From NCBI GenBank assembly GCA_003553445.1, contig PWEK01000095.1, positions 1-54,944 of the forward strand: a stretch of 54,944 bases of DNA, read 5' to 3'. The notes under the pieces were generated by a model. The model did no database searches. It worked only from the letters and a program-made list of their open reading frames with translations, and was not told the DNA's origin. The stretch is from Elusimicrobiota bacterium (GTDB taxonomy: Bacteria; CG03; SLGR01). Shown in pieces: positions 3,043-39,853 of the stretch. Made by a program: the position numbers and the translations under genes. Numbering within the stretch: position 1 is the first letter of the stretch; every line of letters starts with the position of its first letter.

Positions 3043-3627
3043 TTATATTACCCCTTTTGTGGAGGGAAGGCCCTTTCCTGAAACCTTTACAGCTTTTCCG
3101 ATTGATTTTGCAAGAGACTTAAATACACTCTCCGCAATATGATGGTTGTTTTCACCGTAGGCAAGGTTAATGTGAAGCGTGGCCCTCAGGGCCCTTGCAA
3201 AAGAATACATAAACTCCTTTATTAGAGAATAATCAAAATCACCCTTCGGGTCCCAGGGAACAGGGTAGTCAACATTATAAACAAGAAAACTCCGCCCCCC
3301 CAGATCAACGGCGGTATCGCATCTTGCCTCATCCATCGCAAGCATGGCCCATCCGTAACGCTCAATTCCCTTCCTCTCTCCCAATGCCTTATCAATCGCC
3401 TTTCCAAGAACCGATGCGGTATCCTCAACTGAATGATGCGCATCGACCTCAACATCCCCACCGGCCCTTATCCTCATATCTATCCCTGAATGCCTGGAAA
3501 GCTGGTTGAGCATATGATCGAAAAATCCATAAGGCGTCTTTATGTCGGCGTCGCCATTACCGTCAAGATTTACAGAAACCTCAATATCTGTCTCCCGGGT
3601 CTTCCTTTTCTCTTTTGCTTTTCTCAT
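3043..3627 (-). CDS. hisB: Imidazoleglycerol-phosphate dehydratase HisB
   Basis: Dehydrates imidazole-glycerol phosphate to imidazole-acetol phosphate. 194 residues, matching the monofunctional enzyme without the phosphatase domain of E. coli HisB. Metal-binding motifs are complete: GFFDHMLNQLSRHSGID, DAHHSVEDTASVLGKA and GENNHHIAESVFKSLAKS. The ATG overlaps the hisC stop by four bases (ATGA), so the two are coupled. No separate histidinol phosphatase is seen in the window; the PHP protein at 47241-48095 belongs to another PHP branch. Confidence 0.96.
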   Translation of the reverse strand: MRKAKEKRKTRETDIEVSVNLDGNGDADIKTPYGFFDHMLNQLSRHSGIDMRIRAGGDVEVDAHHSVEDTASVLGKAIDKALGERKGIERYGWAMLAMDEARCDTAVDLGGRSFLVYNVDYPVPWDPKGDFDYSLIKEFMYSFARALRATLHINLAYGENNHHIAESVFKSLAKSIGKAVKVSGKGLPSTKGVI

Positions 3628-5857: not shown

Positions 5858-7139
5858 TATTCAGGCTTTCCCCGTTAACTTCTTCCTCTTCCCTAATGTC
5901 AGCCCCGAGGCTTCTCAAAATATGAACAATATTATCATACCCGCGTTCAATGTGGGATATCCCTGTAATTTCAGTAAGCCCCTTTGCAGACAGGGCCGCG
6001 ATAATCAAAGCAGCGCCGCCTCTTAAGTCACAGGCCTTTACCGGAGCCCCCGTAAGGTTTTTAACCCCCGTTACAATAACGGATTCACCCTTAACCTCAA
6101 GGTCCGCCCCCATCCTCATAAGTTCGGCGCAGTGAAGAAACCTGTTTTCAAAAACCTCCTCGCTGACCACGCTTACCCCCTTTGTCCGCGCCAGGTAAGC
6201 GCAAAAAGGGGCCTGAAGGTCTGTAGGAAACCCCGGATACGGCGCCGTTCTTATTTCAGAAGGCATGGGGCGCGAAGGCCCGCAAACCCTTATTTTGTTC
6301 CCGTCCACATCCACATCCGCGCCGCTTTCCTCCAACTTATGAATAAGGGCTTCCAGAACATGCGGATGGGAGAAGTCTATTTCAACCTTTGACCCTTTCA
6401 GAGCCCCCGCAATAAGGTATGTGCCCGCCTGTATCCTGTCATCCATAACTGTAAAATCAACCGGCCTGAACTCTTTCCTTCCCCTTATCTTAACTGACCT
6501 CGAAGAAGGCTCTATCTCCACACCCATCGCTTCCAGAAAAGCCAGCATTTCTTCAACCTCGGGCTCCCTGGCAATATTTTCCAGGACCGTCTCCCCCTCC
6601 GTACGGCTGGCGGCTATCGCAAGGTTTTCCGTAGCCCCCACAGAAGGGTAATCCAAATTTATAACCGCGCTCCTGAGCCCGGATGAATTTAAGTTCACAA
6701 AACCCTTAGAAACCTTAATATCCGCCCCCATTTTTTTGAATCCCTTGAGATGAATATCTATGGGCCTCGTTCCAATTGCGCATCCTCCCGGCAGGGCAAC
6801 CCTTATATTTTTTTTCCTGGCGGCCAGGCCTCCCATAACAAGAACCGAAGCCCTCAATTTTCTAACCAGCCTGTAGGGAGCTTCGCCCGTAAGCCCATCA
6901 GACTTCCTTACAGTAACCACGCTCCCGTTTCTCTCAACAGTTTTACCCAGCACCCTAAGCATAGCTATCATCACCGTTATATCGGTCATATCGGGAACAT
7001 TTCGGATTATGCTTTCCTCATCGGATATAAGCGTAGCTGCCAGAATAGGAAGTACGGCGTTCTTCGAGCCCCCCACATTAACTTTTCCTTTTAACGAAGC
7101 AGGCCCCTTTACACATATTTTTTTTGTTTTTTTATTCAC
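5850..7139 (-). CDS. murA: UDP-N-acetylglucosamine 1-carboxyvinyltransferase MurA
   Basis: First committed step of peptidoglycan synthesis: adds enolpyruvate from PEP to UDP-GlcNAc in the cytoplasm. Two-domain inside-out barrel. The substrate lysine is in VGGSKNAVLPILAA. The catalytic cysteine is present in LPGGCAIGTRPIDIH, so a fosfomycin-sensitive type is expected. The general-acid Asp is in GFPTDLQAPFCAYLA. The frame opens at a TTG at 7184, but I choose GTG at 7139 because a GGAAAT lies 8-13 bases upstream and the protein then begins VNKKTKKICVKGP, like other MurAs (429 residues). It heads the his cluster, a common arrangement, and is 137 bases from prmC. Confidence 0.95.
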   Translation of the reverse strand: MNKKTKKICVKGPASLKGKVNVGGSKNAVLPILAATLISDEESIIRNVPDMTDITVMIAMLRVLGKTVERNGSVVTVRKSDGLTGEAPYRLVRKLRASVLVMGGLAARKKNIRVALPGGCAIGTRPIDIHLKGFKKMGADIKVSKGFVNLNSSGLRSAVINLDYPSVGATENLAIAASRTEGETVLENIAREPEVEEMLAFLEAMGVEIEPSSRSVKIRGRKEFRPVDFTVMDDRIQAGTYLIAGALKGSKVEIDFSHPHVLEALIHKLEESGADVDVDGNKIRVCGPSRPMPSEIRTAPYPGFPTDLQAPFCAYLARTKGVSVVSEEVFENRFLHCAELMRMGADLEVKGESVIVTGVKNLTGAPVKACDLRGGAALIIAALSAKGLTEITGISHIERGYDNIVHILRSLGADIREEEEVNGESLNND

Positions 7140-7276
7140 TCTTATATTTCCATAATAAATTTTTCCGGAGCGTAAAAACAGCAATCAGATTAATTTTCGC
7201 CATTATAACAAATTTAACCGCAACTTTTCTATTATGCGGACCGTCCGTAAGCCAGAATACCTGTTCGCATTCTCAT

Positions 7277-8128
7277 TTATTGCGGGCCCACCTCGCTGAT
7301 AAAAACCCTGTCTATGCCGGAGTAATCCTTCACTAAAAAAGGTTTGCTAAGATTCTTCATCTGCCGTGCATACCTAATTACCGCCTCACCCTGATCATAC
7401 CCTATCTCAATAAAGATTCTTCCGCCTCTCTTTACATACCTTCCGGAGCGAGAGAGTATTCCCTTTATAAAACTCATTCCGGAGTTTCCCGCTTTTAATG
7501 CACCGGCAGGTTCCCTTCTGACCTCATTTGAAAGCGCCTCGTAATCAGTTTCCGACACATAAGGGGGGTTGGAAATAAGAATATCAAATTTGCTCTTTAT
7601 AATGTCTTCATCTGAAAACATGTCCCCCTGGATAAAATTAACCCTGTTCTCAACTTTATGGATTTGAGCATTACGCCGTGCGACTTTCAATGCAGAAGGG
7701 GATTTTTCCAGAGCCGTCACTTCCGCGCCTTTAAGCTTTGCAAGCGCGACAGCAATATTGCCGCTTCCGGCGCCAAGTTCAACCACTGAAGGTTTTTTTT
7801 TCATTCCGTCTATATACTCCATGCATTTTTCAACCATTATTTCAGTTTCCGGCCTCGGTATGAACGTGGCGGGAGTAACCGTAAATTTCATCCCCATAAA
7901 ACAGGCCTCGCCTGTTAAATAAGCCGAAGGGACCCCCTTTTTTCTTTTTTGGATAAGATTTCTGTAGAGCCCGACAGCTTCACTATCAGGCGTACTTTTT
8001 GATTCCAGAATTAAAAAACTTCTCTTAACCTTAAGTATGTGCCCCAGAAGAAACTCGGCTTCAACCTTATCTCCGATAACCCTTCTGCCCTCATCAAGAA
8101 GTTCACTGACAGTCGGTTTCTTTACCAT
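7277..8128 (-). CDS. prmC: Peptide chain release factor N5-glutamine methyltransferase PrmC
   Basis: SAM-dependent methylation of the GGQ glutamine of release factors. Helical N-terminal domain (residues 1-75), then a Rossmann methyltransferase. The SAM loop is VVELGAGSGNIAVALA and the catalytic NPPY is in ILISNPPYVSETDYEAL. GEACFMGMKFTV and IPRPETE are family hallmarks. The ATG at 8128 overlaps the prfA stop (TGATG), coupling the enzyme to its substrate RF1. 283 residues, normal length. Confidence 0.95.
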   Translation of the reverse strand: MVKKPTVSELLDEGRRVIGDKVEAEFLLGHILKVKRSFLILESKSTPDSEAVGLYRNLIQKRKKGVPSAYLTGEACFMGMKFTVTPATFIPRPETEIMVEKCMEYIDGMKKKPSVVELGAGSGNIAVALAKLKGAEVTALEKSPSALKVARRNAQIHKVENRVNFIQGDMFSDEDIIKSKFDILISNPPYVSETDYEALSNEVRREPAGALKAGNSGMSFIKGILSRSGRYVKRGGRIFIEIGYDQGEAVIRYARQMKNLSKPFLVKDYSGIDRVFISEVGPQ

Positions 8129-24766: not shown

Positions 24767-25825
24767 TTAATGGAGCACTTCTTCAACCTGAACAAACTCC
24801 ACTCCCGCTATTTTTAATTCCGGAATCATCTTTTCAAGAGCGGAAACGGTATTTAGTCTTTGAGCATGACATATAGCCACCATTGTTTCTCCGGGATCAA
24901 CCCTTTTTTTTATCAGGCGAAGCCTTCCCTTGATGTAATCCAAATCGTCTTTATTATCCAGAAAGAGAGTATTAAGAGCAGTTTTCACACCGTAATCCCG
25001 GGCCATTTCATATCCAAGTGTTCTCCCGGTAGTCCAGGAATCAATAAAGAAAAGATTTTTGTCTTTTGCAATTTTTAAAAATCTGCTCATTGACTCAGGG
25101 TTTGAGGTAAAAGAAGATCCCATGTGATTATTCAAGCCATTAATGCCCGGCACATCTTCCATGGCTTTTTTTAATGCTGACCTCATCTCCGTTTCATTCA
25201 TTTCATTTAAAAGCACGGGTCTTCCCGGGTTTACTTCCGGATATCTTTCAGGCTCCATCGGCATATGAAGAATGTAGGGGATGTTTTTTTCATTAAACTT
25301 TTCGGCATAATAGGTTGATTTTCTAAGCCCCGGGAGTATGGCATAAGTTAAATCTATACCCAGTTCAAGAAAGCGGCCGATATCGCTGTTCTGACCCAAA
25401 TCATCAACAATTATTGCGACCTTATATCTTTCCGGGACCACAGTTAATTCAATGCAGCTTAAAACTGCTCCGTGCAGACCAACCTCTATCTTCTGCGACT
25501 TTTCCTCTTCATGGATATCAATTACATCGTATCCGCTTCTCCCGGCTACTTCCCTTAACAGCCGGCCTACAAGATCCATCCGTTCAGGCGTTGTTTCAAT
25601 CTGCCTGTAAAGCTCTACCCATATCATTCTGTCCTTTTCTTTTTCGGTCTTTACAGCGGAAGATATTTTTTCTTCTTCCTTTCCCGCCTCAATCAGATAC
25701 TCAGTTAATATATTATCTATCTCATATGCCTTTTCCGTCAGGTCTTTTACCCTTGTCCTGATAAAGATTATTCCGGAAGCTATAACTAAAGCAAGAATTA
25801 AAAGAATAACTTTATTTTTCTTCAT
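24767..25825 (-). CDS. Divergent polysaccharide deacetylase family protein (YibQ-like)
   Basis: 352 residues. The N-terminal membrane anchor (KVILLILALVIASGIIFI) is followed by a linker and, from about residue 135, a NodB-like barrel: VAIIVDDLGQNSDIGRFL, ILHMPMEPERYPEV, GLNNHMGSSFTSNPE and FFIDSWTTGRT. These are the marks of the COG2861 branch, found next to envC in many Gram-negative genomes; its substrate is not settled. The start lies inside the ctpA end (14-base overlap). Role inferred from context: envelope or murein remodelling. Confidence 0.9.
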   Translation of the reverse strand: MKKNKVILLILALVIASGIIFIRTRVKDLTEKAYEIDNILTEYLIEAGKEEEKISSAVKTEKEKDRMIWVELYRQIETTPERMDLVGRLLREVAGRSGYDVIDIHEEEKSQKIEVGLHGAVLSCIELTVVPERYKVAIIVDDLGQNSDIGRFLELGIDLTYAILPGLRKSTYYAEKFNEKNIPYILHMPMEPERYPEVNPGRPVLLNEMNETEMRSALKKAMEDVPGINGLNNHMGSSFTSNPESMSRFLKIAKDKNLFFIDSWTTGRTLGYEMARDYGVKTALNTLFLDNKDDLDYIKGRLRLIKKRVDPGETMVAICHAQRLNTVSALEKMIPELKIAGVEFVQVEEVLH

Positions 25826-27080
25826 GCAGTTCTTTAGGGCTGTTTCTCATAAATATTTTCCTTGCCATAAGCAAATCATGTGCCCTGGCCAACTGGGGGT
25901 CGAGAATTTTTTCACCCGGCTTTTCTTCCTCTTCATCTTCATCTTCATCCGGATAGTAAATCTTTTGCTGCTGCTCAAAGATTTTCCTCCGTTCATCTTC
26001 TGTAACAGAGACCAGAATATCCGGCTTTATTCCCTGTTCATGTATCTTCTTTCCGTTGGGTGTAAAGTACTGCGCGGTTGTAAGACGAAGTGAAGAGCCA
26101 TCCTCCAGATCGATAATACTCTGGACAGATGCTTTCCCGAAACTCGTTTCACCGATTATTATTCCGCGCGCATGGTCTTTTATAGCGCCTGCGACAATTT
26201 CAGAACCGGAGGCGGAGCCCTTGTTTATGAGAACCACCAGAGGAATATCGGGGGATACCGGCTGCCTGGATGTGCGGAATTCTCTTGTCTGATCCGACCG
26301 TCTTCCTTCCGTATATACAACCAATTCGTTCCTTTTTATAAAAATATTGGCAGTTTCAACCGCAGAACTCAACAGGCCGCCCGGGTTGTTCCTAATGTCA
26401 AAAATCAGACTGTCAGCGCCTTTCTCTATGAGTTTATTCAACTCTTCCTCCATTATCTTCGGGGAGTCCTTTGTGAATTCCACAAGGCGCAAATACCCAA
26501 TGTCATTATCCATCATTCTGGTGTAAACTTTCTGGGGGACAATTGAAGCCCTTGTTATTTCATATTCTATTAAATCATCTTTATCTTCTCTTTTTATACC
26601 GATTTTAATATCTGTACCCACCTCACCCCTCATCTTGCTGACTGCCTCTCTTACGGTCAAGCCTACGGCAGATTCCCCGTTAATCTCCACAATCCTGTCA
26701 CCCGGCATTATGCCAAGCTCATAGGCGGGGGTTTCGGGCAACGGACTTACTACGGTAATATACCCGTCTCTTTCCGTGATTCTAATTCCCAGGCCTCCAA
26801 ACTTACCTTCCGTATCTTCCTCCAGAATTTTAGCATCTTCCGGCTCCATAAACTGTGAATACGAATCCAGTGTTTCAACCATCCCTTTCAAAGCCCCGTA
26901 TATGAGTTCCCTCGTATCCACTTCCTCTACATAATTTTCTCTTACCAGAACAAATGCGTCAGAAAAAATACGCATCAGCTGCTCAATGTTTTCACTGTTT
27001 TTGCTGTATATTGGTTTTATCACCAGCAAAGAGCATATAAAACCGACAAATATGACTAATAGAGTTAATTTTCTTTTCAT
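25812..27080 (-). CDS. ctpA: C-terminal processing peptidase CtpA (family S41)
   Basis: Periplasmic protease that in several bacteria trims peptidoglycan hydrolases and other envelope proteins. 422 residues: N-terminal signal/anchor (KLTLLVIFVGFICSLLVI), PDZ domain (about 90-170, with GLGIRITERDGYITVVSPLP and MPGDRIVEINGESA) and the S41 core. The catalytic Ser is in NKGSASGSEIVAGAI and the Lys in IGETSFGKASVQS. An acidic run follows the core (DEDEDEEEEKPG). AAGGAG precedes the ATG. A partner here could be the EnvC-like protein or its amidase. Confidence 0.95.
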   Translation of the reverse strand: MKRKLTLLVIFVGFICSLLVIKPIYSKNSENIEQLMRIFSDAFVLVRENYVEEVDTRELIYGALKGMVETLDSYSQFMEPEDAKILEEDTEGKFGGLGIRITERDGYITVVSPLPETPAYELGIMPGDRIVEINGESAVGLTVREAVSKMRGEVGTDIKIGIKREDKDDLIEYEITRASIVPQKVYTRMMDNDIGYLRLVEFTKDSPKIMEEELNKLIEKGADSLIFDIRNNPGGLLSSAVETANIFIKRNELVVYTEGRRSDQTREFRTSRQPVSPDIPLVVLINKGSASGSEIVAGAIKDHARGIIIGETSFGKASVQSIIDLEDGSSLRLTTAQYFTPNGKKIHEQGIKPDILVSVTEDERRKIFEQQQKIYYPDEDEDEEEEKPGEKILDPQLARAHDLLMARKIFMRNSPKELHEEK

Positions 27081-27140: not shown

Positions 27141-28292
27141 TTATTTAAGCCACTCGATAGGGTTCTCGGGCTGAGAGCCCCTGCCCAATTCAAAGTACAG
27201 GTTTTCTAAAGATAATTCCCCTATTTCCTGGGCGGGTTCAACCTCTTGAGCTACTTCTACCCCTACATTTTTTAAATTCCCATATATAGTATAATAATTC
27301 TTTCCGTGTTCAATTACAACCATATTACCCTTGCCGCTGAAATAGTCAGCATAAACAACCTCCCCGAAGCCAACGCTTTTCACAGTCCTTTCGTCTTCGG
27401 GTTTTATCTCAATCCCCCTGTTATAAATAACTGTATCCAGCTGTGAATGCCTCTGTCTGCCGAATTCTATTACCACCTCCCCCTTTAACGGCCATGGAAG
27501 ACCCCCCTTTGCCTTCACAAAATCCTCAGCAAGCCTGTCTAACCGCTCAATATTCTCAGCTTTTTCTTTAAGCGATGTCACCAGGCTGCTTAATTTTTCT
27601 TTTTCCTTCTTAACGCTTAGCAGCTCTCTCTCCTTTTCCTTTCTGTCTTCTTCAATTTCTTCTAGTAGCTCCATATGCTTTTTGTTTTTCTGAATAAGCC
27701 TTCCCTGAAGTATAAAAACCTCTTGCTTTCTATCCAGCTGCTTTCTCTTCTGTTCCTGCAAACTGTTTTTGAGTTCTCTCTTTTCCCTTATTGATTCTTC
27801 GCTTTCTTTATACCTGTTTGTTTCATAATCAAGATATTTTGCTTTATAGAATTTCATTTTATTGTTCTCTTTAGACATAATCTCAACATACCAGGGCAGC
27901 TCTAAATTTTTTTCATAAAAATATCCCTTTAAGGCTTTATCAAGCCGCATACCGTACTGTTTGCCCTTTCGCATTTCATAATCTAATTTATCTTCAATAA
28001 TCTCAATGTTGCGTTCCGCATAATTAATATCTTTTTCTATATCATCCACCTTTTTCCTCGTGGATATCATCTGTGTCTCAAGATTCTCCAAACTTATTAC
28101 TATCTCTTCTTTTCTTTCATCGAGATGATTAAGCGTTCTGTCAATCTGATTGATGCTCTTTTTGTATCTTTCAAGCTCAGACTCCTGCTTGCGGATTTTT
28201 TCATTTATTGAATCCAGATCCTGCTCAAAACCGGAATATACCCTCTCTGAAACAAAAAAAACAAGCACTGTCAAAACAAGTTTAGTTTTCAT
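27141..28292 (-). CDS. envC: EnvC-like murein hydrolase activator (coiled coil plus degenerate LytM domain)
   Basis: 383 residues. A signal peptide (LVLTVLVFFVSERVYSG) is followed by a coiled coil of about 220 residues and a C-terminal M23/LytM domain (about 265-383: GLPWPLKGEVVIEFG ... GFGEVVYADYFSGKGNMVVIEHG ... YTIYGNL). The zinc ligands of M23 enzymes are gone: NRGIEIK replaces the H-G-D strand and LYFELGRG replaces HLHFE. This is the pattern of EnvC, which is not itself an enzyme but switches on cell-separation amidases when FtsEX moves it. The ATG overlaps the ftsX stop (ATGA). Confidence 0.92.
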   Translation of the reverse strand: MKTKLVLTVLVFFVSERVYSGFEQDLDSINEKIRKQESELERYKKSINQIDRTLNHLDERKEEIVISLENLETQMISTRKKVDDIEKDINYAERNIEIIEDKLDYEMRKGKQYGMRLDKALKGYFYEKNLELPWYVEIMSKENNKMKFYKAKYLDYETNRYKESEESIREKRELKNSLQEQKRKQLDRKQEVFILQGRLIQKNKKHMELLEEIEEDRKEKERELLSVKKEKEKLSSLVTSLKEKAENIERLDRLAEDFVKAKGGLPWPLKGEVVIEFGRQRHSQLDTVIYNRGIEIKPEDERTVKSVGFGEVVYADYFSGKGNMVVIEHGKNYYTIYGNLKNVGVEVAQEVEPAQEIGELSLENLYFELGRGSQPENPIEWLK

Positions 28293-29059
28293 TTTCTTAA
28301 TTGCAAATAACCGATCACTCCCGGCACAAAACCGCTTAATAATATAACCGCCAGTGATCTGAATGTCCTTAACCTCATTGCTATACCCAGATAACCGCCT
28401 ACAGCATGGAGTAATGTATAAGCAGCTATTGCGCTAAATACCCCTTTGAAAAAAATAATCATAACTTCCCTGATAATCGCATACTCAACTTCAGATGCGG
28501 CATTGAGAGCAATATTCTTCTTTGCCCCGGCGGAAATAACATGTCCGGACGACGCTGAATATGAAAGGAGCACAAAAAGAAAAGCAGATAAAAACAAAAC
28601 AGATGAAGAAATACCACCCAGCTTATCTATAATTTCCTCTGCTTTTTGAGCAGCAGAGTATGAAAAGTCCACATTATCTATAATCTTCAGGTTCTCCATA
28701 GCTCTTGATATATTAATCATATATGGTAGATTAATCTCATTCATTTTTAAAGTCAAAGTAGCCGGCAAATTAAATCCTTCAGGAATATCTCTTTCCCCTG
28801 AAAAAATTTCCAAAGCCTGCTGAGAGGTTAAATAGCTTTCAACGGTAAAATAATCATTTCCGGAGATGATATCTTTAAACCCCTCGATCCCGGATTCGCT
28901 GTAACCGGACTGCAGGTAAACTGTCATCTTTATTGAGGAGGATAACTCGCGTGCGAAATCTTTCGCTAATGAAAAAAATTCAATGCCGAACACCAGGGCA
29001 AAGGCGGCGGCAGTTATACAGAAAGAAGATATTAAAGTGGACCTACGTGATTTCCCCAT
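28289..29059 (-). CDS. ftsX: Cell division protein FtsX
   Basis: Membrane half of FtsEX. Four predicted helices: one near residues 12-30, then three after residue 165 (SSSVLFLSAFLFVLLSYSA; EVMIIFFKGVFSAIAAYTLL; SLAVILLSGFVPGVIGYL). A periplasmic domain of about 130 residues between helices 1 and 2 is where FtsX holds EnvC. The frame opens at TTG 29065, but the ATG at 29059 has GAGG at good spacing and is chosen. It overlaps the ftsE end by 17 bases. Confidence 0.92.
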   Translation of the reverse strand: MGKSRRSTLISSFCITAAAFALVFGIEFFSLAKDFARELSSSIKMTVYLQSGYSESGIEGFKDIISGNDYFTVESYLTSQQALEIFSGERDIPEGFNLPATLTLKMNEINLPYMINISRAMENLKIIDNVDFSYSAAQKAEEIIDKLGGISSSVLFLSAFLFVLLSYSASSGHVISAGAKKNIALNAASEVEYAIIREVMIIFFKGVFSAIAAYTLLHAVGGYLGIAMRLRTFRSLAVILLSGFVPGVIGYLQLRK

Positions 29060-29696
29060 TTTCAAGCCTCAACACCTTCACTGCCTTTCTATCTGCTTTT
29101 ATTCCGGGTCGCGCAGAGAAAACAACCACGGTATTTTTGCTTGCGTAATCCGCCAGCATGCGCAAGGCTGTTTTCTCATCTGAAAACCCCCCGTAATTAA
29201 AATCACATATAATAATTTTCGGCTTCCAGACCATAACCATTGAAAGGGCGAGGGTTTTTTTCTCAATAAAGGATAATTTAGAGGGGGATACTTCCCTTTT
29301 GGCCATCAGCCTGCTTTTTTTTAATACACTCATAATGTTGTCGAAATAATCATTTTTCTTGTGAGCCTTAAGTTTGAGAATATATTTCATGTTTTCAAAA
29401 ACACTTTTTTCTTCAAGAAAATAAAAATCTTCTGACATATATCCGGTCTCTCTCATTCTATTTTTTATCTTCCGGCGCTTAAAATCAAATATCTCTTTAT
29501 CTTCGATAAAGACCTTTCCCGATGTCGGAAATATCTGCAGGGCCAGAATTTTGAGAAGCGTGCTCTTTCCGCTACCGGCCGGGCCCTCCATTTGGAGAAA
29601 ATCCCCCGGGTGCAAATCAAGATTGATGTTTTTTAAAATCTCATGCTTATCCGGTTGCCTTAAAAATACGTTTTCTAATTTAATAAGTGAAGTCAA
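29043..29696 (-). CDS. ftsE: FtsE-like ABC protein with degenerate catalytic motifs
   Basis: 217 residues in the FtsE position and of FtsE length. Walker A is intact (GPAGSGKSTLLKIL) and the overall fold aligns end to end with FtsE. The other ATPase motifs are lost: the Q-loop FQD is SED, the signature LSGGEQQRV is LSFIEKKTL, Walker B LLADEPTG is IICDFNYG (catalytic Glu replaced by Phe), and the switch-His region ATHD is FSAR. In E. coli, ATP hydrolysis by FtsE is needed to activate EnvC, so this protein should bind but not split ATP, or work with a different logic. Start is TTG at 29696; no ATG fits. Confidence 0.88.
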   Translation of the reverse strand: MTSLIKLENVFLRQPDKHEILKNINLDLHPGDFLQMEGPAGSGKSTLLKILALQIFPTSGKVFIEDKEIFDFKRRKIKNRMRETGYMSEDFYFLEEKSVFENMKYILKLKAHKKNDYFDNIMSVLKKSRLMAKREVSPSKLSFIEKKTLALSMVMVWKPKIIICDFNYGGFSDEKTALRMLADYASKNTVVVFSARPGIKADRKAVKVLRLENGEIT

Positions 29697-29773: not shown

Positions 29774-30448
29774 CTATATGTTTTTTATATTCTTTTCCTG
29801 CATTTTTAATCCGGGAAAATCCAGTCTGCTGCCGGGAATTTTATAACTGAACAAATCTGCGGAAAAACATCCCTCTTTCCTCTCCACCCCGATTTCCTGC
29901 GGGCAGGACTTGTAAGAAACAGATTCCCCCCTGTTTAACAAATACCTTCCTCCGACAAGCACGAGTGCAGAAGCCACTCCTACCGCAAGGGCTGCCTTAA
30001 TCTCGGGAATTCCCCAAAGATGTACCACAGCAACCAAAACAAGGGTGAATCCCCAGATAAAAATCAAAATCCAGGCCAGCCTGGAGCTGATTATAAGAGA
30101 AAACAACGGCCTGAATACTAAAATCACCGAAATATTCATCTGAATCATAAACAGTTTTCTCATTCTTTTCCTGTTTAAAAGAGATGATGAAACAGGATTT
30201 ACTAAACCAACTACAGCCGCTATTATTAAATCAGCTATAAAAATTAAACCGGCCCACGAAAAAACTAAAAGAGCGACAGAGCATAAAAAATATCTTAACC
30301 CGTATGCAATGCTGAAAGTAGCTACTTCAATATTTCCCGCGATTACCGCCAGCGCAAAAATTATGACAGAAGATACTTTTAACCCGTCTTCTCCTATTTT
30401 CGCTATTTCTTCAGCCGGCTTTATTATTATTCCAATTAATCTTTTCAC
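29774..30448 (-). CDS. Polytopic membrane protein (Yip1-like topology)
   Basis: 224 residues with about five hydrophobic helices (for example VSSVIIFALAVIAGNIEVA, FLCSVALLVFSWAGLIFIA, LAWILIFIWGFTLVLVAVV and ALAVGVASALVLVGG) and a soluble C-terminal tail of about 50 residues. The N-terminus RLIGIIIKPAEEIAKI and the helix layout recall the bacterial Yip1/YIF1 family, but that match is weak. GTG start with AAGGATTG-type spacing. It sits between the second giant coiled-coil gene and ftsE, all one strand, so it may anchor the rods to the membrane (inference). Confidence 0.7.
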   Translation of the reverse strand: MKRLIGIIIKPAEEIAKIGEDGLKVSSVIIFALAVIAGNIEVATFSIAYGLRYFLCSVALLVFSWAGLIFIADLIIAAVVGLVNPVSSSLLNRKRMRKLFMIQMNISVILVFRPLFSLIISSRLAWILIFIWGFTLVLVAVVHLWGIPEIKAALAVGVASALVLVGGRYLLNRGESVSYKSCPQEIGVERKEGCFSADLFSYKIPGSRLDFPGLKMQEKNIKNI

Positions 30449-30489: not shown

Positions 30490-33400
30490 TTAAATCTTCA
30501 GAATCGTTTCTTTTTCCGAATCCTTCCCGCTTTCACCTGTAAATGCGCCCAGAAGTTTTCTCACAACACCCTTCCTCGTCCGGCGCAGCCTGTGATTAAG
30601 CCTATTAACCTCAAGCTGCTTGTTTCTGTATGCAGTTTTCCACTTAATGTCTCTCTGTGCTATCCTGGCCTTAAGCTCCCTTACTTCCTCTTCCTTATCT
30701 CTTAATGCATTTTTATAAGAGAGCGCTTTGGACTTAAGTTTTCTTAATTCTTTAGTAGCCTCAGAAAACTTCCTCGAAAATTCTGATTCATTCTGGGCTT
30801 TTTCCAGCTGCATTTTCTTAAATTCCTCTTCCTTCTCATGCAACCTTACATTCCATTGTCTTTCACTGCTGTATTTCTCTTTTCTCAAATCTTCTATTTC
30901 TTCCTGAAGGCGGTTACGGTAGTCAAGAAGCTCTTTTTCTCTTGAAGAATAAATGCTGCGCCACTGTGATTCCTTCTGCTGAAGCTTCTCACGCAGAAAA
31001 AGCTTAAGGCGCCTCTCTTTTTCTTTTATTTTACCCCTGTATTCCTCTTCAAGGCTCCGGTTTTCCTCTCTCAGGTTTTTAAGTTCTTCTTCTTTCTGCC
31101 TTAACAGCCTATTTGTATCCTCCCTGATTTTTTCATGATTGCGGACCAGTTCAAGTATTTTTTCTTCTTTGTCGGTTATTACGCTGCCGACATCACCGCT
31201 TTTCCTGCGAACCCTGCTTATCTCGTCCCTCAACCTTTCCGTTTCCTGGATTAATGACTTTCTTTCCCGCTCGTGACCGGATGTCAACCTTTCTATTTCT
31301 CTCTTATAAAGTGAAACCTCGCTCTCTCTCTCAGACTCCGCCGCACGCGAGCGAGCTTCAGCCTCCATAATCCTGAACCGCGCATTGCTGAGCTCCTCCT
31401 GGATAAGTTCAGTCTCGTTCTTAACCTCTATATATTTATCCCTGTACTCTTCAAGCTCTTCCTTCATAATAGCAGATTCGTTCTCTTTTGTTGAGAGCCT
31501 CAACTGCAGTTCGCCTGTTGTATTTTTCAGGGAATTTATTTCATCGATTAATTCTTTTTCTCTTTCGTTCCATCTTGAAATTCTCTTTTCATAATCACTG
31601 CCTATTTTTTCATGTTTTTCTTTCAGTCCCCTAATTTCTTCCTTGAGCCTGTTTATTTCATTTTCCCTGACAACCAGCTTCTCTCTTTTTGATTCAATCT
31701 GAAGGTTTAAATCATATTCTACGTTTTTAAAGCCTTCTCTTATTCTTCTTTCTTTTTCCGCCGCCTTTTCTCGTGCATAGTTGATTTTCCGCTCAAACTC
31801 TTCATCTTTCTTTTTTATTTCGTAATGATACCTGTTTGCCTCATTATTAAAATCCTCTTTATATTCCCGGTTCTTTCTCTCTAATTCTTTATATCGCGTC
31901 CGGTAGTTTTTGAGCGCCGATTCCAAATCCCCGTTTCTTTTTTTCTCCCCTTGAAGCTTTTCCTCCAGCCGCTCAATATTGATTTCAAGAATTTGCCTTA
32001 CACGGGAAGACTCCGAACTTTTCTCCTCTTCCATGAGTTTAATCTCTTTTACTTTATGGAGATATTTTTCTTTTTCCGAAACCTGTTTTTCTCTTAAATC
32101 ATCAATTTTTTTCCTGTAATGCTTTCTTACTGATTCTATTTCTTCAGCCGCCCTCTGTTTTTCTTCCTCCACTTTATCCTTTTTACTGCTTAAGTCTTTT
32201 GAGCGATTTATGTATTCTTCCTGGAGTTCCTTCATCTTTTCAGAGGCCTCTTTTTTCAATAACCTTTTTTCCTGTTTGTAATTGTTTATCTCTTCCTGCC
32301 AGTTTTCTTTCTCCTCGGAAAGTTTATTTCTCAGCCACTGAAGTTCCGATTCAGCCATTGAGCTTTTTAATTTAAGGTCGTATATCCGGTCTTCATATTC
32401 ATAACTTATTTCTTTTCTTATTTCCGCCTTTTTTCTTTCAACATCGATTTTACTGCGGTTAAGCTCTTTCTCCAAGGCAAAAAGCTCATCTTTTAATTCT
32501 CTCTCCCTCTCCTTCAACTCCTCCTCTCTGTTTTTGTGCTCTTTTACAATTTCTTTTTCTCTTCTCTTAAAACCCTCCCTCATGTTTTCTATACGGCGAT
32601 TATGCTCTTCCTCTTTTTCTTTGCTGTGATTAATCAGGTTCTCCTGTTTTTCTTTCAATGCTGAAAGTTCATCGCAAAGTTTTCTCTTTTCGCGTTCAAA
32701 ATCTTCCTGCCTTTTTTTTATTTCTCTGTCCCATTCAAACCGGCTTTCCTTTATTTCCTCAGCCAGCTTCTGTTTGGATTTTCTCTCTTCTTCAATACGG
32801 TGAGACAGCTCCTGCCTTATCCTGTTTTTTTCTGATTCGGCAAATTGAATACTCGCCTTTAATTCCTGAACCTTTTTTGTTTTTTCATTAAATTTTCTGT
32901 GAAGCTCGGCATTTTCACTCTCATGTTCTTTTCTGAGGGCATTCATCTCCTCTTCTTTTTCTCTAATTTTCCTGAAAACACTTATTTTCTCGGAATTGAG
33001 CTCTTCCTGCAGAACTGTAAGCGAATTTTTTATATTGTCCCTTTCATTTTGAAGTTCATTCAGCTTTGCCTTATAATCATACTCCAGCTCCTTTTCCCGC
33101 CGCGCAGTATTTACCCTGTTCTCCCAGTTAGACTTTTTTTCTTCCTCATATTTGCTCTTTAAGTTTTCCAGCTGCTGCTTTTTTTCCGCCTTTATTTCAT
33201 TTATCCTGCCGGTTAACTCTACAATTCTGCGGTTTGCTTCTTCTCTTTTTTCTCTCCAGACATCGTATATTTCATCTTCGCGGGCTTTCATGGAGCGCCG
33301 GGTATTTTCAAGTTCCTGCTCTTTCAAATTAAGCTTATCGGACCAAATTTCCTTCTGTTCCTTTAAGCGGTTTTCCAGTTCAGCCGCATTCTGCTCAAGT

Positions 33401-35448
33401 TCCCTTTCACGCTCTTTAAGGGCACTGATTTCTTTCTCATAATGCCGGCTCAAATCCTGCCGGCGTTTCTCATTCTCCTGTTCAAGGTTCTTAATCTTTT
33501 CATCCTTTTCCTTTAACTGGCTGTACTTCTGCCTTCTTTCTTCTTCCATCCTGTCAGAAAGCTCCTTTAAGGAATTTTCCAACCCGGCATTAACAGACTC
33601 AAGCTTATGCTCTTTTCGCTGATATTCATCCTTTAAAGCCAGTATATCCTGCTGCGACTTTGACCTAATTTTATTTATTTCAGTCTGTTTTTTGGCTACA
33701 AGCCACTCCCAGTGCTCCTTTTTCTGCTGGAGCTGATGTGAAATTTCATTCGTTTCATTATCCAGACGTTCTCTCAGTTTCCTTATTCTGTTTTCCTTAG
33801 ACTCTTTTTCCTGCCTGATTATTTCATTCTGCTGACGAAGCTCCAGAAATCTTTCATTCCACAGGGCTTCTTTCTCTATCAGGTTTTTCTTTAATGAGCC
33901 TATCTCATCCCTTCTCGCTTCGAGTTTCTGCAGGAGGGTTGCAATATTTTTGTCTTTTTCATAAACGAGTGAATTTTTTTCCCTTATATTCTCGTTTAGT
34001 TTTTCAACAAGTTCGTTCTTCTCCTTTTTCCATCTCTCTTTTGAAGAAGCCAGCCGCTCCTTGAGGTCCTCTTCAATCCGGGACAACTCAGCCCTCTTAG
34101 CCTCAAGCATATTGTCCCGCTGGTCCTTTATTTTTTCTATTTCAGTTTTAAGTGAATCAATTTCTTGCTGCTTGTCATAAAGGCGCTTTCTGAAATCATC
34201 CAGCAGTTTTTCTTTTTCTCTTGTGACCCGGTGAAGCTCGCTCTCTGTTTTTTGAAGTTCACTTTGCAGGCGGGAATATTTTTCCCTGCTTTCCTCGGCT
34301 TCTTCTTCCCTTTCAAGATGCAGCCTTGCTGCTTTTACGTCATACTCATTTATCAGCTCCTGCGTTTTACGCTGCCATTTCTCGTTTTCTTCCTGCCTTG
34401 CCTGCCGGGTTTTCTCCAGCTCTTCTTTTAAATTCTGAATATCCTGCTTTAGCTTTCTGCTTTCATCTCTGTATCTGAGCTCTCCCTGCTCTTTCTCCCG
34501 CTTGAGTTCCTTTATATGCCGGTCTTTCTTATTTTCCAGCGATATTAATTTTTCGTTCAGGTTTTCTATGCTCTGATCTTTTCTTTCTATCTTTTCTTTT
34601 AAATCCTGTTCTTTAAGAAGTGTCCTGGAATATAAAACTTCGTTTTCCTCATGCTCTCTTCTTAACTCCGTCTCGAGTCTATCTTTAACTTCACTGTATT
34701 CTTTTTCCAGCTGGCCCTTCTGGCGCTCTTTTTCAGCTATAATGCTTCTTAACTTACCTAACTTTTCATTATTCCGTTCCCTGAGAGCATTTATTTCAGC
34801 TTCATGTATTTCTTCCCGCCTCTTTAGCTGATTTTCCTTTTCATTTAGCTTCCTCTCCAAATCGTCGGTCTTCTCCTCAAGTTTTTCTTTTTTTTCAAGC
34901 AGCTCTTCCTGACGCCTTCTGCTCTTCTCTTCTATTTCCGCTTTTTCTTTTTCGTAAAAAACCTTGATATTCTCCAGTTCATTTTTATTTTTACGATTCT
35001 GATGAACAAGAGTGTCTTTTAAATCAACCGACCGGGTTTTGTATTTATGACAGAGAGCCTCGAGATCATTTTTTTCCCTTTCCAGCTCCGCCGTTCTTCT
35101 GTCATAGTCCGCTTTTTTTTCCTTCAGCTTAAGGCTGAATTCTTCAGATATTTCCTGCTTTGCGCGAAGCAGATCCTCAACCCTCTTTTCTTTTAAAGAT
35201 ATTTTGCGTTCGTATTCCTCTTCCATCTTTTTCATCCGGGATTCGTTTTCGCGCTTCAAATGCGCCAACTTATTCTTTAAAGAGGCTATCTCGTTTATCA
35301 GGGTTGCCTTGCGGGTGTGATACTCCTGCTTTATACTATAATTCTCTTTTTCTTTAAGGCGTATCTTCTCTGCGCATTCCTTTTCCTGTTCCTGAAGTTT
35401 TTCTATAAGCAGCTCTATTTTTCTTTTCAGTTCTTTTTCTCTATTCAT
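30490..35448 (-). CDS. Giant coiled-coil protein, 1652 residues, no proline seen
   Basis: Almost the whole chain is charged heptad repeat, dominated by Glu, Lys, Arg, Leu, Asn and Ser. I see no proline from end to end, so an uninterrupted rod is possible; at 0.1485 nm per residue it would be about 245 nm. No signal peptide or membrane helix, so cytoplasmic. A 15-residue motif recurs irregularly: Trp, then hydrophobics at +4, +11 and +14, with Lys/Arg at +7 and an acidic residue or Gln at +8 (for example EIWSDKLNLKEQELENTRR, SQWRSIYSSREKELLDYRN, IKWKTAYRNKQLEVNRLNH). The C-terminus changes to a basic amphipathic tail (RRTRKGVVRKLLGAFTG), a possible membrane or nucleic-acid contact. Lies 13 bases after its paralogue. 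Function unknown; a cytoskeletal rod is the natural guess. Confidence 0.9.
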   Translation of the reverse strand: MNREKELKRKIELLIEKLQEQEKECAEKIRLKEKENYSIKQEYHTRKATLINEIASLKNKLAHLKRENESRMKKMEEEYERKISLKEKRVEDLLRAKQEISEEFSLKLKEKKADYDRRTAELEREKNDLEALCHKYKTRSVDLKDTLVHQNRKNKNELENIKVFYEKEKAEIEEKSRRRQEELLEKKEKLEEKTDDLERKLNEKENQLKRREEIHEAEINALRERNNEKLGKLRSIIAEKERQKGQLEKEYSEVKDRLETELRREHEENEVLYSRTLLKEQDLKEKIERKDQSIENLNEKLISLENKKDRHIKELKREKEQGELRYRDESRKLKQDIQNLKEELEKTRQARQEENEKWQRKTQELINEYDVKAARLHLEREEEAEESREKYSRLQSELQKTESELHRVTREKEKLLDDFRKRLYDKQQEIDSLKTEIEKIKDQRDNMLEAKRAELSRIEEDLKERLASSKERWKKEKNELVEKLNENIREKNSLVYEKDKNIATLLQKLEARRDEIGSLKKNLIEKEALWNERFLELRQQNEIIRQEKESKENRIRKLRERLDNETNEISHQLQQKKEHWEWLVAKKQTEINKIRSKSQQDILALKDEYQRKEHKLESVNAGLENSLKELSDRMEEERRQKYSQLKEKDEKIKNLEQENEKRRQDLSRHYEKEISALKERERELEQNAAELENRLKEQKEIWSDKLNLKEQELENTRRSMKAREDEIYDVWREKREEANRRIVELTGRINEIKAEKKQQLENLKSKYEEEKKSNWENRVNTARREKELEYDYKAKLNELQNERDNIKNSLTVLQEELNSEKISVFRKIREKEEEMNALRKEHESENAELHRKFNEKTKKVQELKASIQFAESEKNRIRQELSHRIEEERKSKQKLAEEIKESRFEWDREIKKRQEDFEREKRKLCDELSALKEKQENLINHSKEKEEEHNRRIENMREGFKRREKEIVKEHKNREEELKERERELKDELFALEKELNRSKIDVERKKAEIRKEISYEYEDRIYDLKLKSSMAESELQWLRNKLSEEKENWQEEINNYKQEKRLLKKEASEKMKELQEEYINRSKDLSSKKDKVEEEKQRAAEEIESVRKHYRKKIDDLREKQVSEKEKYLHKVKEIKLMEEEKSSESSRVRQILEINIERLEEKLQGEKKRNGDLESALKNYRTRYKELERKNREYKEDFNNEANRYHYEIKKKDEEFERKINYAREKAAEKERRIREGFKNVEYDLNLQIESKREKLVVRENEINRLKEEIRGLKEKHEKIGSDYEKRISRWNEREKELIDEINSLKNTTGELQLRLSTKENESAIMKEELEEYRDKYIEVKNETELIQEELSNARFRIMEAEARSRAAESERESEVSLYKREIERLTSGHERERKSLIQETERLRDEISRVRRKSGDVGSVITDKEEKILELVRNHEKIREDTNRLLRQKEEELKNLREENRSLEEEYRGKIKEKERRLKLFLREKLQQKESQWRSIYSSREKELLDYRNRLQEEIEDLRKEKYSSERQWNVRLHEKEEEFKKMQLEKAQNESEFSRKFSEATKELRKLKSKALSYKNALRDKEEEVRELKARIAQRDIKWKTAYRNKQLEVNRLNHRLRRTRKGVVRKLLGAFTGESGKDSEKETILKI

Positions 35449-35461
35449 TTTTTTCTAAATG

Positions 35462-38400
35462 TCACTGTTTTTTAATCCTGGCTATTTCTTCTTTGAGTCT
35501 TTTTTCCTCTTCTTTCCACTTTTTCTCAAGTTCCTTCAATTCTTTTCGTATTCTTTTTTTTTCATTCTTTGGGACATCGCGGTGTTCTCTTTCCTTTTCC
35601 TCAAGCTCCCTGCTGTATGACTCCTTCTTCTTTTCCAGTTTTTCCTTAACCGTTTTTATCAGGTTCTTCAGATTGGATTCTCTTTCTTTTCCCTCTTCTT
35701 CATACTTGCGGTTTTTTTCTTCTTCCTTCGAAGTATTTATACTCTCAGTTTTACTTTCATTACCAGCATCCTCATGCTTTAATGATCCGGGGTTTTCCAG
35801 CCCCAACCTGAATTTATCAATATTCTCTTCAAGTCTGCTCCTTATCTGGGCAAGTTCCTGTTTTTTCTCTTTTTTTTCTTCTTTCATTCTTCGGCTGCTC
35901 AAGGAAAGCTCCTTCTTTAATCTTGAATTCTCTTCCTTCATGTTCTTTATATCATTTTCAAGTTTCGAAACAGTCGTCTGAAACTTATCTTCCATTATAG
36001 AAATTTCGTTCTCATACTTGTTTTTCTGAGTAACCAGCTGTGACTCTTTTTCTGAAAACTTAGACTTTAAATCTAAATTCTCCTCCTCCAACTTCTTAAG
36101 CATATCCGAGTGCTCCTTGAGCTGCCGCCGCATATCTTTTTTTATCTGTTTTATTTCATCTTTATGCTCTTTCTTCTCTTTTTCAAGCGCTTTTTTATTA
36201 TTATCAAGTTCTTCATGAAGTTTTTCTATATCTTCTTCTTTTCTTGGCATCTCCGTATTAAGAATGCCTTCAACCCTGTTGAGCTGCTTCTGCAATTCGT
36301 TTTTTTCATTAAGCCACTCTCTTTCCCTGGAAGATACCTCCTCCATAAAATTTCGTTCCTTCTTTTCTTTTTCTTCCATCAGCTCTCTGTATTCTCTTTC
36401 TTTTTCCTTGAGCATTTCATTCCACTTTTTCCTGTCCTCTTCAAGCTGAAGCTGCAGTTTGGAATTTGAGTTTTTTAATTCCTCAAGTCTTTCTTCAAGC
36501 GCTTTTCTTATATTCCCCGAATCTTCCCTGAGCGCCTTTATCTGCTCATCCTTATTTCTTATTTTTTCTTCCCATACCTTCCGCTGAGCCGCAACCCTTT
36601 CTTCAAATTCTCTTAATAAACTTTCCAGTTCCTCTCTCACCTTGTCTACCTCCCAGGTTTTCTTACTGAGCTTTTCCTTCAGCTGCTGAACACTCTTATT
36701 TAATCTTTTCTCCCTGTTTTCAAATTCATTTTTAAGGTGCTCTGCTTCATTTCTTAAGGAAGATATAGTCTCATCTTTTTTTCTCTTTAACTTTTCAATC
36801 TCAGCATTTTTCTCTTCCCTTAACTCCCCTGTTTGAGTAAAAGCCTCTTTAAGCTTCGATTTAAGCTCTTTAACCTCAGCTTCCCTCTCCTGCTGAATCT
36901 TATTTATTTCATTTTCGGAATTATTTTTTATTTTCCTAATATTTCCGACAAGGTCAACTTTTTCCGCTTCATGATCGTTTTTTAGGCGGGTTATTTCTTC
37001 ATCTTTTTCAGCAGCAATTTCGTTATTTTTCACCTTTAATGAATTGATATCGTTTTTTAAGTTTTCAATCAGAAAAAGATTTTCTTTGTTCTCATTTAAA
37101 TATTCCTTTTCTTTCTCTGCCAGGCTGTTTTTCAGGCTTTCAATCAGGGATCTTTTTTCCGACATTTTATTTTCATATCTCTCATCTGCTTTTCTCAAGT
37201 TTGCCAGGAGCTCTTCCTTCTCAGATTCAAATTTTCTTCTGAGACTTTCCTTTATATTTTTTTCTTCCGATAGAAGTTTCTCAAGTTCAGAAACTTTTCC
37301 GGTATATCTTTCCCTCTGGTTATCTACGGATTGCTCCAGAGAAGAGATTTCCTTATGCAATCTTTCTTGCTCAACCCTGTAATTCTTCTCTTTTTCCGCT
37401 ATCTCGGTTTTCATATCAGACAGCTTTTCTTTAGCTAAATCCCTAGACTGCTGAACCCTTGAGATTTCTCTTCTTAACGATTCTACATTATTATGGTTTT
37501 TTCTTTCCGCTTCTCTTAAAATGCGTTCAAGCTCTTTTATCCTAAGCTGTTTTTCCGCTGTCTTTTCCGTCCATAGTCTGTTTTCCTGCCTTCTTTTGGC
37601 CGTCTCAACCGAAAGCTGATTTTTTATTTCATAATTCCGGGATTCAAGCTCATCTATACGTGAATTTTTTTCATTATTTTCTTTCTCATATTTATCCCTC
37701 AAACCGCTTATTTCAGTCTCAAAAGACTGCCTTAAATCTTTTTTCTCTTCATTAATATTTGAAAGATCATTTTCCAGCTGTATGATGCGGCCGTTTTTTT
37801 CCTCTATCAGAGACCTCATGTTTTCCTCAGTCCTTTTATGCGCGTTAATTTCACCGGAAATCTTTTCCTCATACCAGCCGGACTGCTCATCATTATGCTG
37901 TTTCAGTTTTTCATACTCTTTCTCAACCCTGTTTAGTTCTTCCCTGGCCTGATTTAATTCGTTAACAAAAGCGGCGGATTCCTTTTCCTTTTCTTTTTGC
38001 AGAAGACCAATTTTTTCTTCCTTTTGCAGAACTTCCCTCTCAAGTCTATTCTTTTCTTCCTCGTATTTCCTTTCCTTTTCAATCTGCGCCCTGCGTTCCT
38101 CCTGCCTTGCCGCGCTCTCTGCAGCATATCGGTTCTTAATCTCGGCTAATTTGGATTCCAGTTCTTTTATCTGTTTTGATTTTTCCTCTTCCTCAACCTC
38201 ATATTCATCCTTTAAATTTTTTATCTCTTCCTTGTATAAACGCTCCGCCTGCTCATTTTCAGCTTTAGCCTCGGCAAGTTCGGCCTCAAGGTTATTCACC
38301 TGCCTTTCCTTTTCTTCAATAAGATTCTTTAAATGAGATTCTTCCGCTTTAGCCGCCTCTTTCTCTGACGTGAGTTTCTTCTGATGCTCCTTGAGCCTAT

Positions 38401-39853
38401 TTTCGCTTTCACTCTTTAACAAATCATAGTCTTTTTGAGACCGGCTAAGCTCCCGGTTCAGATTTTCCAGCCTTTCATACAGCGTTTGAATTCTGCGGTC
38501 TTTCTGAGCGCGAAGCTTTTTGAGCTGTTTATCTTTTTCCCCTATTTCTGATTTATAGCGCACTCTTTCCCTTTCCGCTTTTGTTTTTACAAGGGATATT
38601 TCCTCTTTCAGTTTATCTATCTCTTCCCGGCTGCGGCCTATCTGAAATTTCAGTTCCGCCTCTGAACTTTCCTTTTTATTTACTAACTCGTTAACCTCTA
38701 TTTTTCGATCCCGCTCCCTGTCAAGAATGTTATTCTGTAATGTTTCAATCTCTGACTCCAGGTTTCCTATCTTCTGTTCATACTCCTGGATTTCAGCGCT
38801 GTGTTTTTCTTTTAAATCTTCTAAATCGGATTCCGCGCTTTTATCTGCAGCCCTTATTTTTTCCTCAAGAACCGCATTGGATTCCTTTAATTTTCTTTCT
38901 TTATTTTCCTTTTCCGCAATCAGCCTCTCATAATTATCGGCAATCTCATCTTTTTCTTTCTTCAGTCTTTCAATTTCATCAGCATACCTTTCCCGAACTG
39001 ATTCAATCTCCGCCTGGAGGGAATCCCTGTCCCGCCTGAGTTGTGATTTAGTAATGCCGAGCTGTTTTTGAAGGTCGATAACCTTGCGCTCTTTTTCATG
39101 TAAATCTCTTCGAAGCTTTTCCAGGCGCGCATCGCTCCGGCGCTTTAAATTGTTCTTTTCTTCCTCAAAAACGGCATTCTGGCTGGCTTTCTCATCTTTC
39201 AACCTGCTTATTTCCTGCTGATACCGGGCGTTAAGGGAGGACTGGCTGGCCTCAAGCGAATTTATTTCTTCCTGTTTTTTAGAAAGGCGCTCGGCCCATC
39301 TCTGCCTTTCTTCTTCGAATGTATTATCTTTTGAGGTCTCTTTTCTTAGGCGTTCTTCAAGTGAGTTTCTTATTTCTTCAAGATCGTTCTTTTTTAACTG
39401 ATATTCAGATCTTAGCTGAGCCTGGCGCAGGTTCATCTGGGCCTTAAATGTGTTTATTTCCCTCTGTTTTTTTGAGAGCTTTTTTTCCCAGCTTTCACGC
39501 TCTCTGGAGATATTTTCTTTAAGGTTTTCCATTTCTTTCTGAAGAGCCCTTTTGTCGCTGTCAATTTCTTTTATGGATTTTTCCCGGGATATGTCCTTAT
39601 TTTTTGGGGGGGCTTCTTCGCCGGTTTCGTCCAACTCATTCCCGGAGGGTTCTTCATTTTGGCCGGACATGCTTTCAATCTCGCCGGAGAGCTGCCTTAT
39701 TTCAGCATTTATCTTTGCAGCAGCTGATTTTATTTTTTTTACTTTTTCTCTCTCTTCTTCCGGGTTCAATTTATCCAGCACCTCCAGAAGTCTCTTGCGG
39801 GCATCTTTTTTAGCCGATACTAATATTTTTTTATCTTTTAATTCATTTTCCAT
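35462..39853 (-). CDS. Giant coiled-coil protein, 1463 residues
   Basis: Same composition as its downstream neighbour and sharing its Trp motif (RESWEKKLSKKQREINTFK, RQRWAERLSKKQEEINSLE, NRLWTEKTAEKQLRIKELE, RKVWEEKIRNKDEQIKALR). The N-terminal ~90 residues differ: a short helical part, then an acidic linker with most of the protein's few prolines (NEEPSGNELDETGEEAPP). The next prolines appear only near the C-terminus (TEMPRK, ENPGSL, RDVPKN), so about 1,150 residues run without a break. Predicted rod about 200 nm. No signal peptide. No clear ribosome site before the ATG; it starts 58 bases after tRNA-Asp. It opens the block that continues to ftsEX-envC-ctpA. Long antisense frames here are shadows of its skewed composition. 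Confidence 0.9.
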   Translation of the reverse strand: MENELKDKKILVSAKKDARKRLLEVLDKLNPEEEREKVKKIKSAAAKINAEIRQLSGEIESMSGQNEEPSGNELDETGEEAPPKNKDISREKSIKEIDSDKRALQKEMENLKENISRERESWEKKLSKKQREINTFKAQMNLRQAQLRSEYQLKKNDLEEIRNSLEERLRKETSKDNTFEEERQRWAERLSKKQEEINSLEASQSSLNARYQQEISRLKDEKASQNAVFEEEKNNLKRRSDARLEKLRRDLHEKERKVIDLQKQLGITKSQLRRDRDSLQAEIESVRERYADEIERLKKEKDEIADNYERLIAEKENKERKLKESNAVLEEKIRAADKSAESDLEDLKEKHSAEIQEYEQKIGNLESEIETLQNNILDRERDRKIEVNELVNKKESSEAELKFQIGRSREEIDKLKEEISLVKTKAERERVRYKSEIGEKDKQLKKLRAQKDRRIQTLYERLENLNRELSRSQKDYDLLKSESENRLKEHQKKLTSEKEAAKAEESHLKNLIEEKERQVNNLEAELAEAKAENEQAERLYKEEIKNLKDEYEVEEEEKSKQIKELESKLAEIKNRYAAESAARQEERRAQIEKERKYEEEKNRLEREVLQKEEKIGLLQKEKEKESAAFVNELNQAREELNRVEKEYEKLKQHNDEQSGWYEEKISGEINAHKRTEENMRSLIEEKNGRIIQLENDLSNINEEKKDLRQSFETEISGLRDKYEKENNEKNSRIDELESRNYEIKNQLSVETAKRRQENRLWTEKTAEKQLRIKELERILREAERKNHNNVESLRREISRVQQSRDLAKEKLSDMKTEIAEKEKNYRVEQERLHKEISSLEQSVDNQRERYTGKVSELEKLLSEEKNIKESLRRKFESEKEELLANLRKADERYENKMSEKRSLIESLKNSLAEKEKEYLNENKENLFLIENLKNDINSLKVKNNEIAAEKDEEITRLKNDHEAEKVDLVGNIRKIKNNSENEINKIQQEREAEVKELKSKLKEAFTQTGELREEKNAEIEKLKRKKDETISSLRNEAEHLKNEFENREKRLNKSVQQLKEKLSKKTWEVDKVREELESLLREFEERVAAQRKVWEEKIRNKDEQIKALREDSGNIRKALEERLEELKNSNSKLQLQLEEDRKKWNEMLKEKEREYRELMEEKEKKERNFMEEVSSREREWLNEKNELQKQLNRVEGILNTEMPRKEEDIEKLHEELDNNKKALEKEKKEHKDEIKQIKKDMRRQLKEHSDMLKKLEEENLDLKSKFSEKESQLVTQKNKYENEISIMEDKFQTTVSKLENDIKNMKEENSRLKKELSLSSRRMKEEKKEKKQELAQIRSRLEENIDKFRLGLENPGSLKHEDAGNESKTESINTSKEEEKNRKYEEEGKERESNLKNLIKTVKEKLEKKKESYSRELEEKEREHRDVPKNEKKRIRKELKELEKKWKEEEKRLKEEIARIKKQ

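Follow-up and report, generated by a model that had tools for sequence, protein, structure and literature searches.

An FtsE-like cassette with degenerate ATPase motifs in a conserved ftsE-ftsX-envC operon, a candidate non-hydrolysing platform for EnvC

The described FtsEX-EnvC/PcsB systems of E. coli, P. aeruginosa, V. cholerae and S. pneumoniae include FtsE, a protein of the ABC fold encoded next to ftsX, an EnvC-type activator and an AmiA/AmiC-type amidase. According to PMC12505981 and PMC11627006, ATP binding drives the change in FtsX/EnvC and hydrolysis resets it in E. coli and Pseudomonas; the AmiA-type insert carries a regulatory helix (PMC11627006). The preliminary description of the locus considered here held that EnvC activation in E. 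coli requires ATP hydrolysis by FtsE. In view of Du et al. 2020 (PMC7343993), this is too strong: EnvC recruitment and cell separation are both performed by ATPase-dead FtsEX once it is uncoupled from FtsA, whereas synthesis of the septal wall, as well as full activity when NlpD is absent, needs hydrolysis. The E. coli ATPase mutant blocks septal synthesis via FtsA (PMC7343993), and the E163Q substitution in FtsE leads to a division defect (PMC11491553). The reason for ATP hydrolysis by FtsEX, as well as its control, is presented as an open question in PMC7343993 and PMC12505981. Degenerate ABC sites are described in PMC7756269 as holding ATP for minutes and possibly acting as a hinge.

The window, i.e., the whole stretch of DNA analyzed (54,944 nucleotides), belongs to a genome of 2.2 Mb from a small bacterial group that has not been cultured. 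All window genes discussed below lie on its minus strand. The FtsE-like ABC cassette of 217 aa, a putative pseudo-ATPase, is encoded at positions 29043..29696, exactly where the preliminary description had placed it, and its reading frame is intact. Walker A (GPAGSGKS, residues 38-45, positions 29562..29585) is retained, as had been read before. The Q-loop is represented by MSED (positions 29427..29438; context YMSED), with Glu89 at the place expected for Gln according to the translation. The signature LSFIE (positions 29262..29276, in the stretch LSFIEKK, residues 141-147) keeps Leu-Ser and has lost both Gly. Walker B reads IIICDFN (positions 29196..29216): Asp165 is kept, the catalytic Glu is replaced by Phe166 and the next Pro by Asn167. 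The D-loop YGGFS (positions 29181..29195) is degenerate, and the switch region FSARP (positions 29106..29120) lacks His, the place of which is taken by Arg196 (or by Ala195 if the gap is shifted). These departures agree with the preliminary reading of SED, LSFIE, CDFN and FSAR. Loss of the A-loop aromatic residue should be added to that list, since the region VFLRQ (positions 29655..29669) has an aromatic residue three residues earlier and none at the canonical place. The complete ATPase set of Gln, LSGG, Glu and His is absent from this protein.

Despite this degeneration of motifs, the window protein is predicted to be an ABC cassette with a fold nearest to that of FtsE. Its AlphaFold model has a pLDDT of 91.5; solved FtsE structures occupy ranks 1-6 in Foldseek, and in VIA-align S. 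pneumoniae FtsE comes first, at a Z of 26.8 and an rmsd of 2.1 over 216 residues; LolD and MacB trail the FtsE chains by about one Z or less in the structural ranking. The best NCBIfam match is TIGR02673, with 111 bits against a curated cut-off of 264.85, which is not reached. Compared with FtsE of the four species named above, the protein differs by the absence of the catalytic Glu, the Gln, the switch His, the A-loop aromatic and the second signature Gly, as well as by this low score; the ABC fold, the adjacency to ftsX, the EnvC-type activator and the AmiA/AmiC-type amidase are common to both.

The end of ftsE is overlapped by a gene for an FtsX-like permease (258 aa, positions 28289..29065; TIGR00439, E=5e-6). 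Taken alone, this sequence falls below the cut-off for PF18075 (E=0.018). With a profile built from 10 FtsX relatives, solved chains of FtsX are retrieved (best E=8e-11), and the top match of the AlphaFold model (pLDDT 84) is P. aeruginosa FtsX; membrane helices and an extracellular domain, as expected of FtsX, are found on the strength of the model matches and the relatives' profile. The ftsX-like gene in turn overlaps a gene for an EnvC-type amidase activator (positions 27141..28292), so that ftsE is accompanied by both an adjoining ftsX and an EnvC/PcsB-type partner. This activator has a hydrophobic N-terminus, a coiled coil and a LytM domain without zinc ligands (N291 and Y366-E368 at the relevant alignment positions), and a profile of 12 EnvC relatives covers nearly the whole length of solved EnvC (E=1.5e-47). 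Two further neighbours conserved by synteny follow, namely a CtpA-type C-terminal processing protease (positions 25812..27080; TIGR00225, E=2.5e-99) and a divergent polysaccharide deacetylase (positions 24767..25825; PF04748, E=8e-60), with tsaD after them in the window.

The rest of the predicted cell-separation pathway is ordinary. FtsA exceeds its cut-off in 14 of the 16 genomes of the phylum, the window genome included; the gene adjoining ftsA there was named from its sequence and is taken by us to encode FtsZ. Amidase_3 is present in 12/16 genomes. The amidase of the window genome has AmiA and AmiC of E. coli as matches, and its alignment with AmiA extends across the insert with the regulatory helix, which makes it a candidate EnvC-responsive enzyme of the AmiA/B/C type.

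The window genome was compared with 15 relatives of the same phylum, and FtsE beside FtsX was recovered in 13 of these 16 genomes; no FtsE was obtained from G001, where the contig ends inside the operon, or from G007 and G013 (66% and 69% complete), and the G009 protein is truncated by a contig end, its first residues being absent. In those loci of the phylum that hold the genes concerned, ftsE-ftsX-envC-ctpA is the conserved order, and the ftsE/ftsX overlap is conserved as well. Many pairs of these FtsE proteins are merely 18-40% identical. The Walker A Lys, the Walker A Ser/Thr, the signature Leu-Ser and the Mg-binding Walker B Asp are nevertheless each kept in 13/13. Neither the Q-loop Gln nor the switch His occurs in any of the 13, with the proviso that the Q-loop alignment of the sister family is uncertain (the stretch is about 16 residues shorter there, and two rows have Gln one place further on). 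The A-loop aromatic is missing from all 12 scorable proteins, every one of which has an aromatic residue three places earlier. Other positions vary: the second signature Gly is present in six proteins and lost in seven, and the place of the catalytic Glu is occupied by Glu in three (G009, G011, G015), Asp in four, Phe in four and Leu in two. All six FtsE of the window's order end Walker B with Asp-Phe/Leu-Asn. As judged from these alignments, motif loss is a trait of the lineage, and the losses look stepwise, with Gln, His and the A-loop aromatic gone everywhere and Glu in part only.

The degenerate ftsE is under purifying selection. A simple counting method gives dN/dS of 0.15 for the pair G004/G006, in which synonymous change is high (1.2), and 0.25 for G008/G012. 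The neighbouring genes give similar values in the same two pairs (0.18 and 0.35 for ftsX, 0.14 and 0.27 for envC). Within the window's order, where FtsE proteins are about 30% identical, 23 of 214 columns are invariant; these comprise 9 of the 17 columns in Walker A, the signature and Walker B versus 14 of 197 elsewhere (p=5e-6 by Fisher's test, with a manual tally of the motif columns). In the tree, the 13 FtsE of the phylum form one branch (100/87). Its sister is the FtsE of the distant genome G220 (99/95), but a branch length of 2.7 changes per column makes common descent and long-branch attraction indistinguishable; weakly supported positions elsewhere are taken by G024, the Desantisbacteria row and others.

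Comparison with FtsE across phyla, which the preliminary description had proposed, was based on 110 FtsX loci of other genomes, i.e., the 30 best matches and 80 hand-picked among the matches listed (205 genomes matched), which is not a random sample. After 14 loci without an ABC reading frame at E 1e-6 were dropped, 96 FtsE were scored, and 86 of them have all six scored motifs complete. The Gln is present in 93, the catalytic Glu in 94, the second signature Gly in 95, the switch His in 89 (one more is masked) and the A-loop Tyr/Phe in 91, so the motifs of the window protein are far from usual. Of the ten incomplete cases, one is a masked row; the other nine are real departures, and in G024 and G220 these reach the catalytic Glu. 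Anchoring on EnvC gave 80 loci; 48 had no ABC reading frame within 2.5 kb upstream, and the 32 with one comprised 17 complete motif sets and 15 incomplete ones. Ten of the latter belong to the window's phylum, three have an N-terminal part that is truncated or does not align, and the remaining two are L163 and L121. Weakening of FtsE thus recurs, yet among the sampled loci the absence of Gln and His throughout one phylum stands out.

Several of the loci sampled deserve a separate description. In G024 (L305, G024:C72, 3641-4321), FtsE is encoded between an MreB-like gene and ftsX, its Walker B Glu is changed to Asp and its switch His is lost. In G220 (L306, G220:C1, reverse complement 3361-7863), FtsE lacks the Walker A Lys, the Gln, the signature Gly, the Glu and the His; it adjoins a good FtsX match, after which come genes for a coiled-coil protein and one resembling CtpA, and is likely a nucleotide-free FtsE. 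The FtsE upstream of EnvC in a Candidatus Desantisbacteria record (L163) has lost the Q-loop Gln, the signature and the switch His, and that of the EnvC-anchored L121 has lost the switch His. The 14 matches to the FtsX extracellular domain without a neighbouring ABC reading frame in the fetched stretch (e.g., L191, L194, L196, L203) possibly represent FtsX without an adjacent FtsE.

Directly upstream of ftsE in the window lie a gene for a Yip1-like membrane protein of 224 aa (positions 29774..30448) and a pair of very long coiled-coil genes (1652 and 1463 aa, positions 30490-39853). The rod pair together with the Yip1-like gene is also found upstream in G003, G004 and G006, the three relatives of the order with a contig reaching that far. 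The window's Yip1-like protein is without the TPR tail of several hundred residues that its relatives in the order carry (L071:8976-11030, L074:7561-9744, L072:128-2305). The preliminary description had proposed the rods as a possible driver of the switch. As the cause of the motif losses across the phylum they were rejected, because FtsE of the sister family lacks Gln and His as well, while no rod-length reading frame is listed upstream of its ftsE in the loci readable there, other genes being present instead. In the window's order, the rods may represent an added input.

The function of the degenerate protein could be explained in the following way. FtsE of this FtsE-FtsX-EnvC-amidase separation pathway has, on balance, probably lost hydrolysis and would serve as an ATP-holding platform for the positioning of EnvC. 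It retains the predicted ABC fold and the residues that contact the phosphates of Mg-ATP (Walker A Lys/Ser, Walker B Asp, signature Leu-Ser), and it is preserved together with FtsX as its partner. The two FtsE subunits would most likely bind ATP and stay clamped, or be controlled solely by binding and release of nucleotide. FtsX would thereby present EnvC so as to open the autoinhibited amidase, and timing could be derived from assembly of the division ring (FtsZ/FtsA) and amidase autoinhibition rather than from an ATPase cycle. This interpretation draws on the change in EnvC driven by ATP binding, on the FtsA-uncoupled dead FtsEX and on degenerate sites that hold ATP. Residual activity could persist in G009, G011 and G015, where the catalytic Glu is kept.

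Two kinds of described proteins come closest to such a state. ATPase-dead FtsE(D162N)X and FtsE(E163Q)X of E. coli are, in the cited parts of PMC7343993 and PMC11491553, an ATP-holding, non-hydrolysing FtsEX able to carry EnvC. They were made by mutation and are harmful to division in E. coli, whereas here the state is natural and fixed in a lineage. The degenerate sites of CFTR, TAP and TM287/288 likewise have an altered signature and Walker B Glu, and ATP is held rather than split there, according to PMC7756269; one of the two sites is intact in those proteins, while the single FtsE gene here would give two degenerate sites. Among the papers listed by searches of open-licence PubMed Central literature, none deals with a naturally ATPase-less FtsE in its title or displayed abstract, and searches on pseudo-ABC proteins provided no parallel closer than the degenerate exporter sites. 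The weaker points of a non-hydrolysing, ATP-holding FtsE are the A-loop and FtsA. ATP affinity may be low because the A-loop aromatic and the signature Gly are lost. Since the E. coli ATPase mutant does harm via FtsA and FtsA is present here, the putative FtsX-FtsA link would have to be altered or absent.

Alternatively, FtsE could use no nucleotide at all and act as a purely structural part that stabilizes FtsX and links it to the division ring. Loss of the A-loop aromatic in 12/12 scorable proteins, of Gln and His in 13/13 and of the second signature Gly in 7/13 fits this explanation, and the distant FtsE of G220, devoid of even the Walker A Lys, indicates that such an endpoint exists. It is nevertheless unlikely: the Walker A Lys and Ser/Thr, the signature Ser and the Walker B Asp are invariant at 18-40% identity, and a purely structural protein would not need them. 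Invariance of the residues in contact with nucleotide speaks for ATP binding.

A canonical ABC ATPase encoded elsewhere could pair with FtsE, or replace it under FtsX, thus providing one working site. The changes in the signature and the Walker B Glu do resemble the degenerate half of heterodimeric exporters, as characterized in PMC7756269, and many other ABC cassettes are present in the genome. The search for a second canonical ftsE, suggested in the preliminary description, revealed none: with the group's FtsE profile the window copy scores 273 bits and the next match 120, and TIGR02673 is above its cut-off in 0/16 genomes of the phylum and in 7/14 control genomes. With the genome estimated at 97% completeness and 5.6% contamination, a missed copy is unlikely but possible. 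Four of the 30 cassette matches were inspected and all have other neighbours, presumably two MacB-like permeases (C21), a LolC/E-like one (C10), a 260-aa membrane protein (C48) and metal-uptake genes (C49). An external ATPase partner is accordingly given a low probability.

Slow hydrolysis with another residue as the base, e.g., Glu at the Q-loop position, is quite improbable. Glu does occupy that position in 4/13 proteins, and the Walker B place holds Glu in 3/13 and Asp in 4/13; the window's order, however, has no conserved Q-loop residue (four Glu, one His, one Pro) and Phe/Leu at the Walker B place. A decaying pseudogene or assembly artefact, suggested by the many motif losses in one protein, is hardly credible and was rejected, as was the hidden frameshift named in the preliminary description as a possible refutation, since the frame is open over 239 codons in the window and open in 13 genomes, relatives from other assemblies show the same losses, dN/dS is 0.15-0.25, the cassette fold is confident and synteny with the ftsX overlap is kept. 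With purifying selection acting and no second FtsE found, the proposal of a pseudo-ATPase FtsE made in the preliminary description is supported at the level of sequence.

It seems somewhat more probable than otherwise that the whole phylum runs FtsEX-EnvC separation without ATP hydrolysis: Gln, the A-loop aromatic and His would have been lost first, with the catalytic Glu following in one order, so that a mechanical platform, held by nucleotide or free of it, would remain under the timing of other inputs of the divisome. As the partners are intact and the ATPase is predicted to be gone, recruitment and positioning of EnvC would be separated here from cycling, which offers a natural system for establishing which step needs hydrolysis. 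Annotation of FtsE as an ATPase by gene order calls for caution. The locus suggests that a switch for daughter-cell separation can work without burning ATP.
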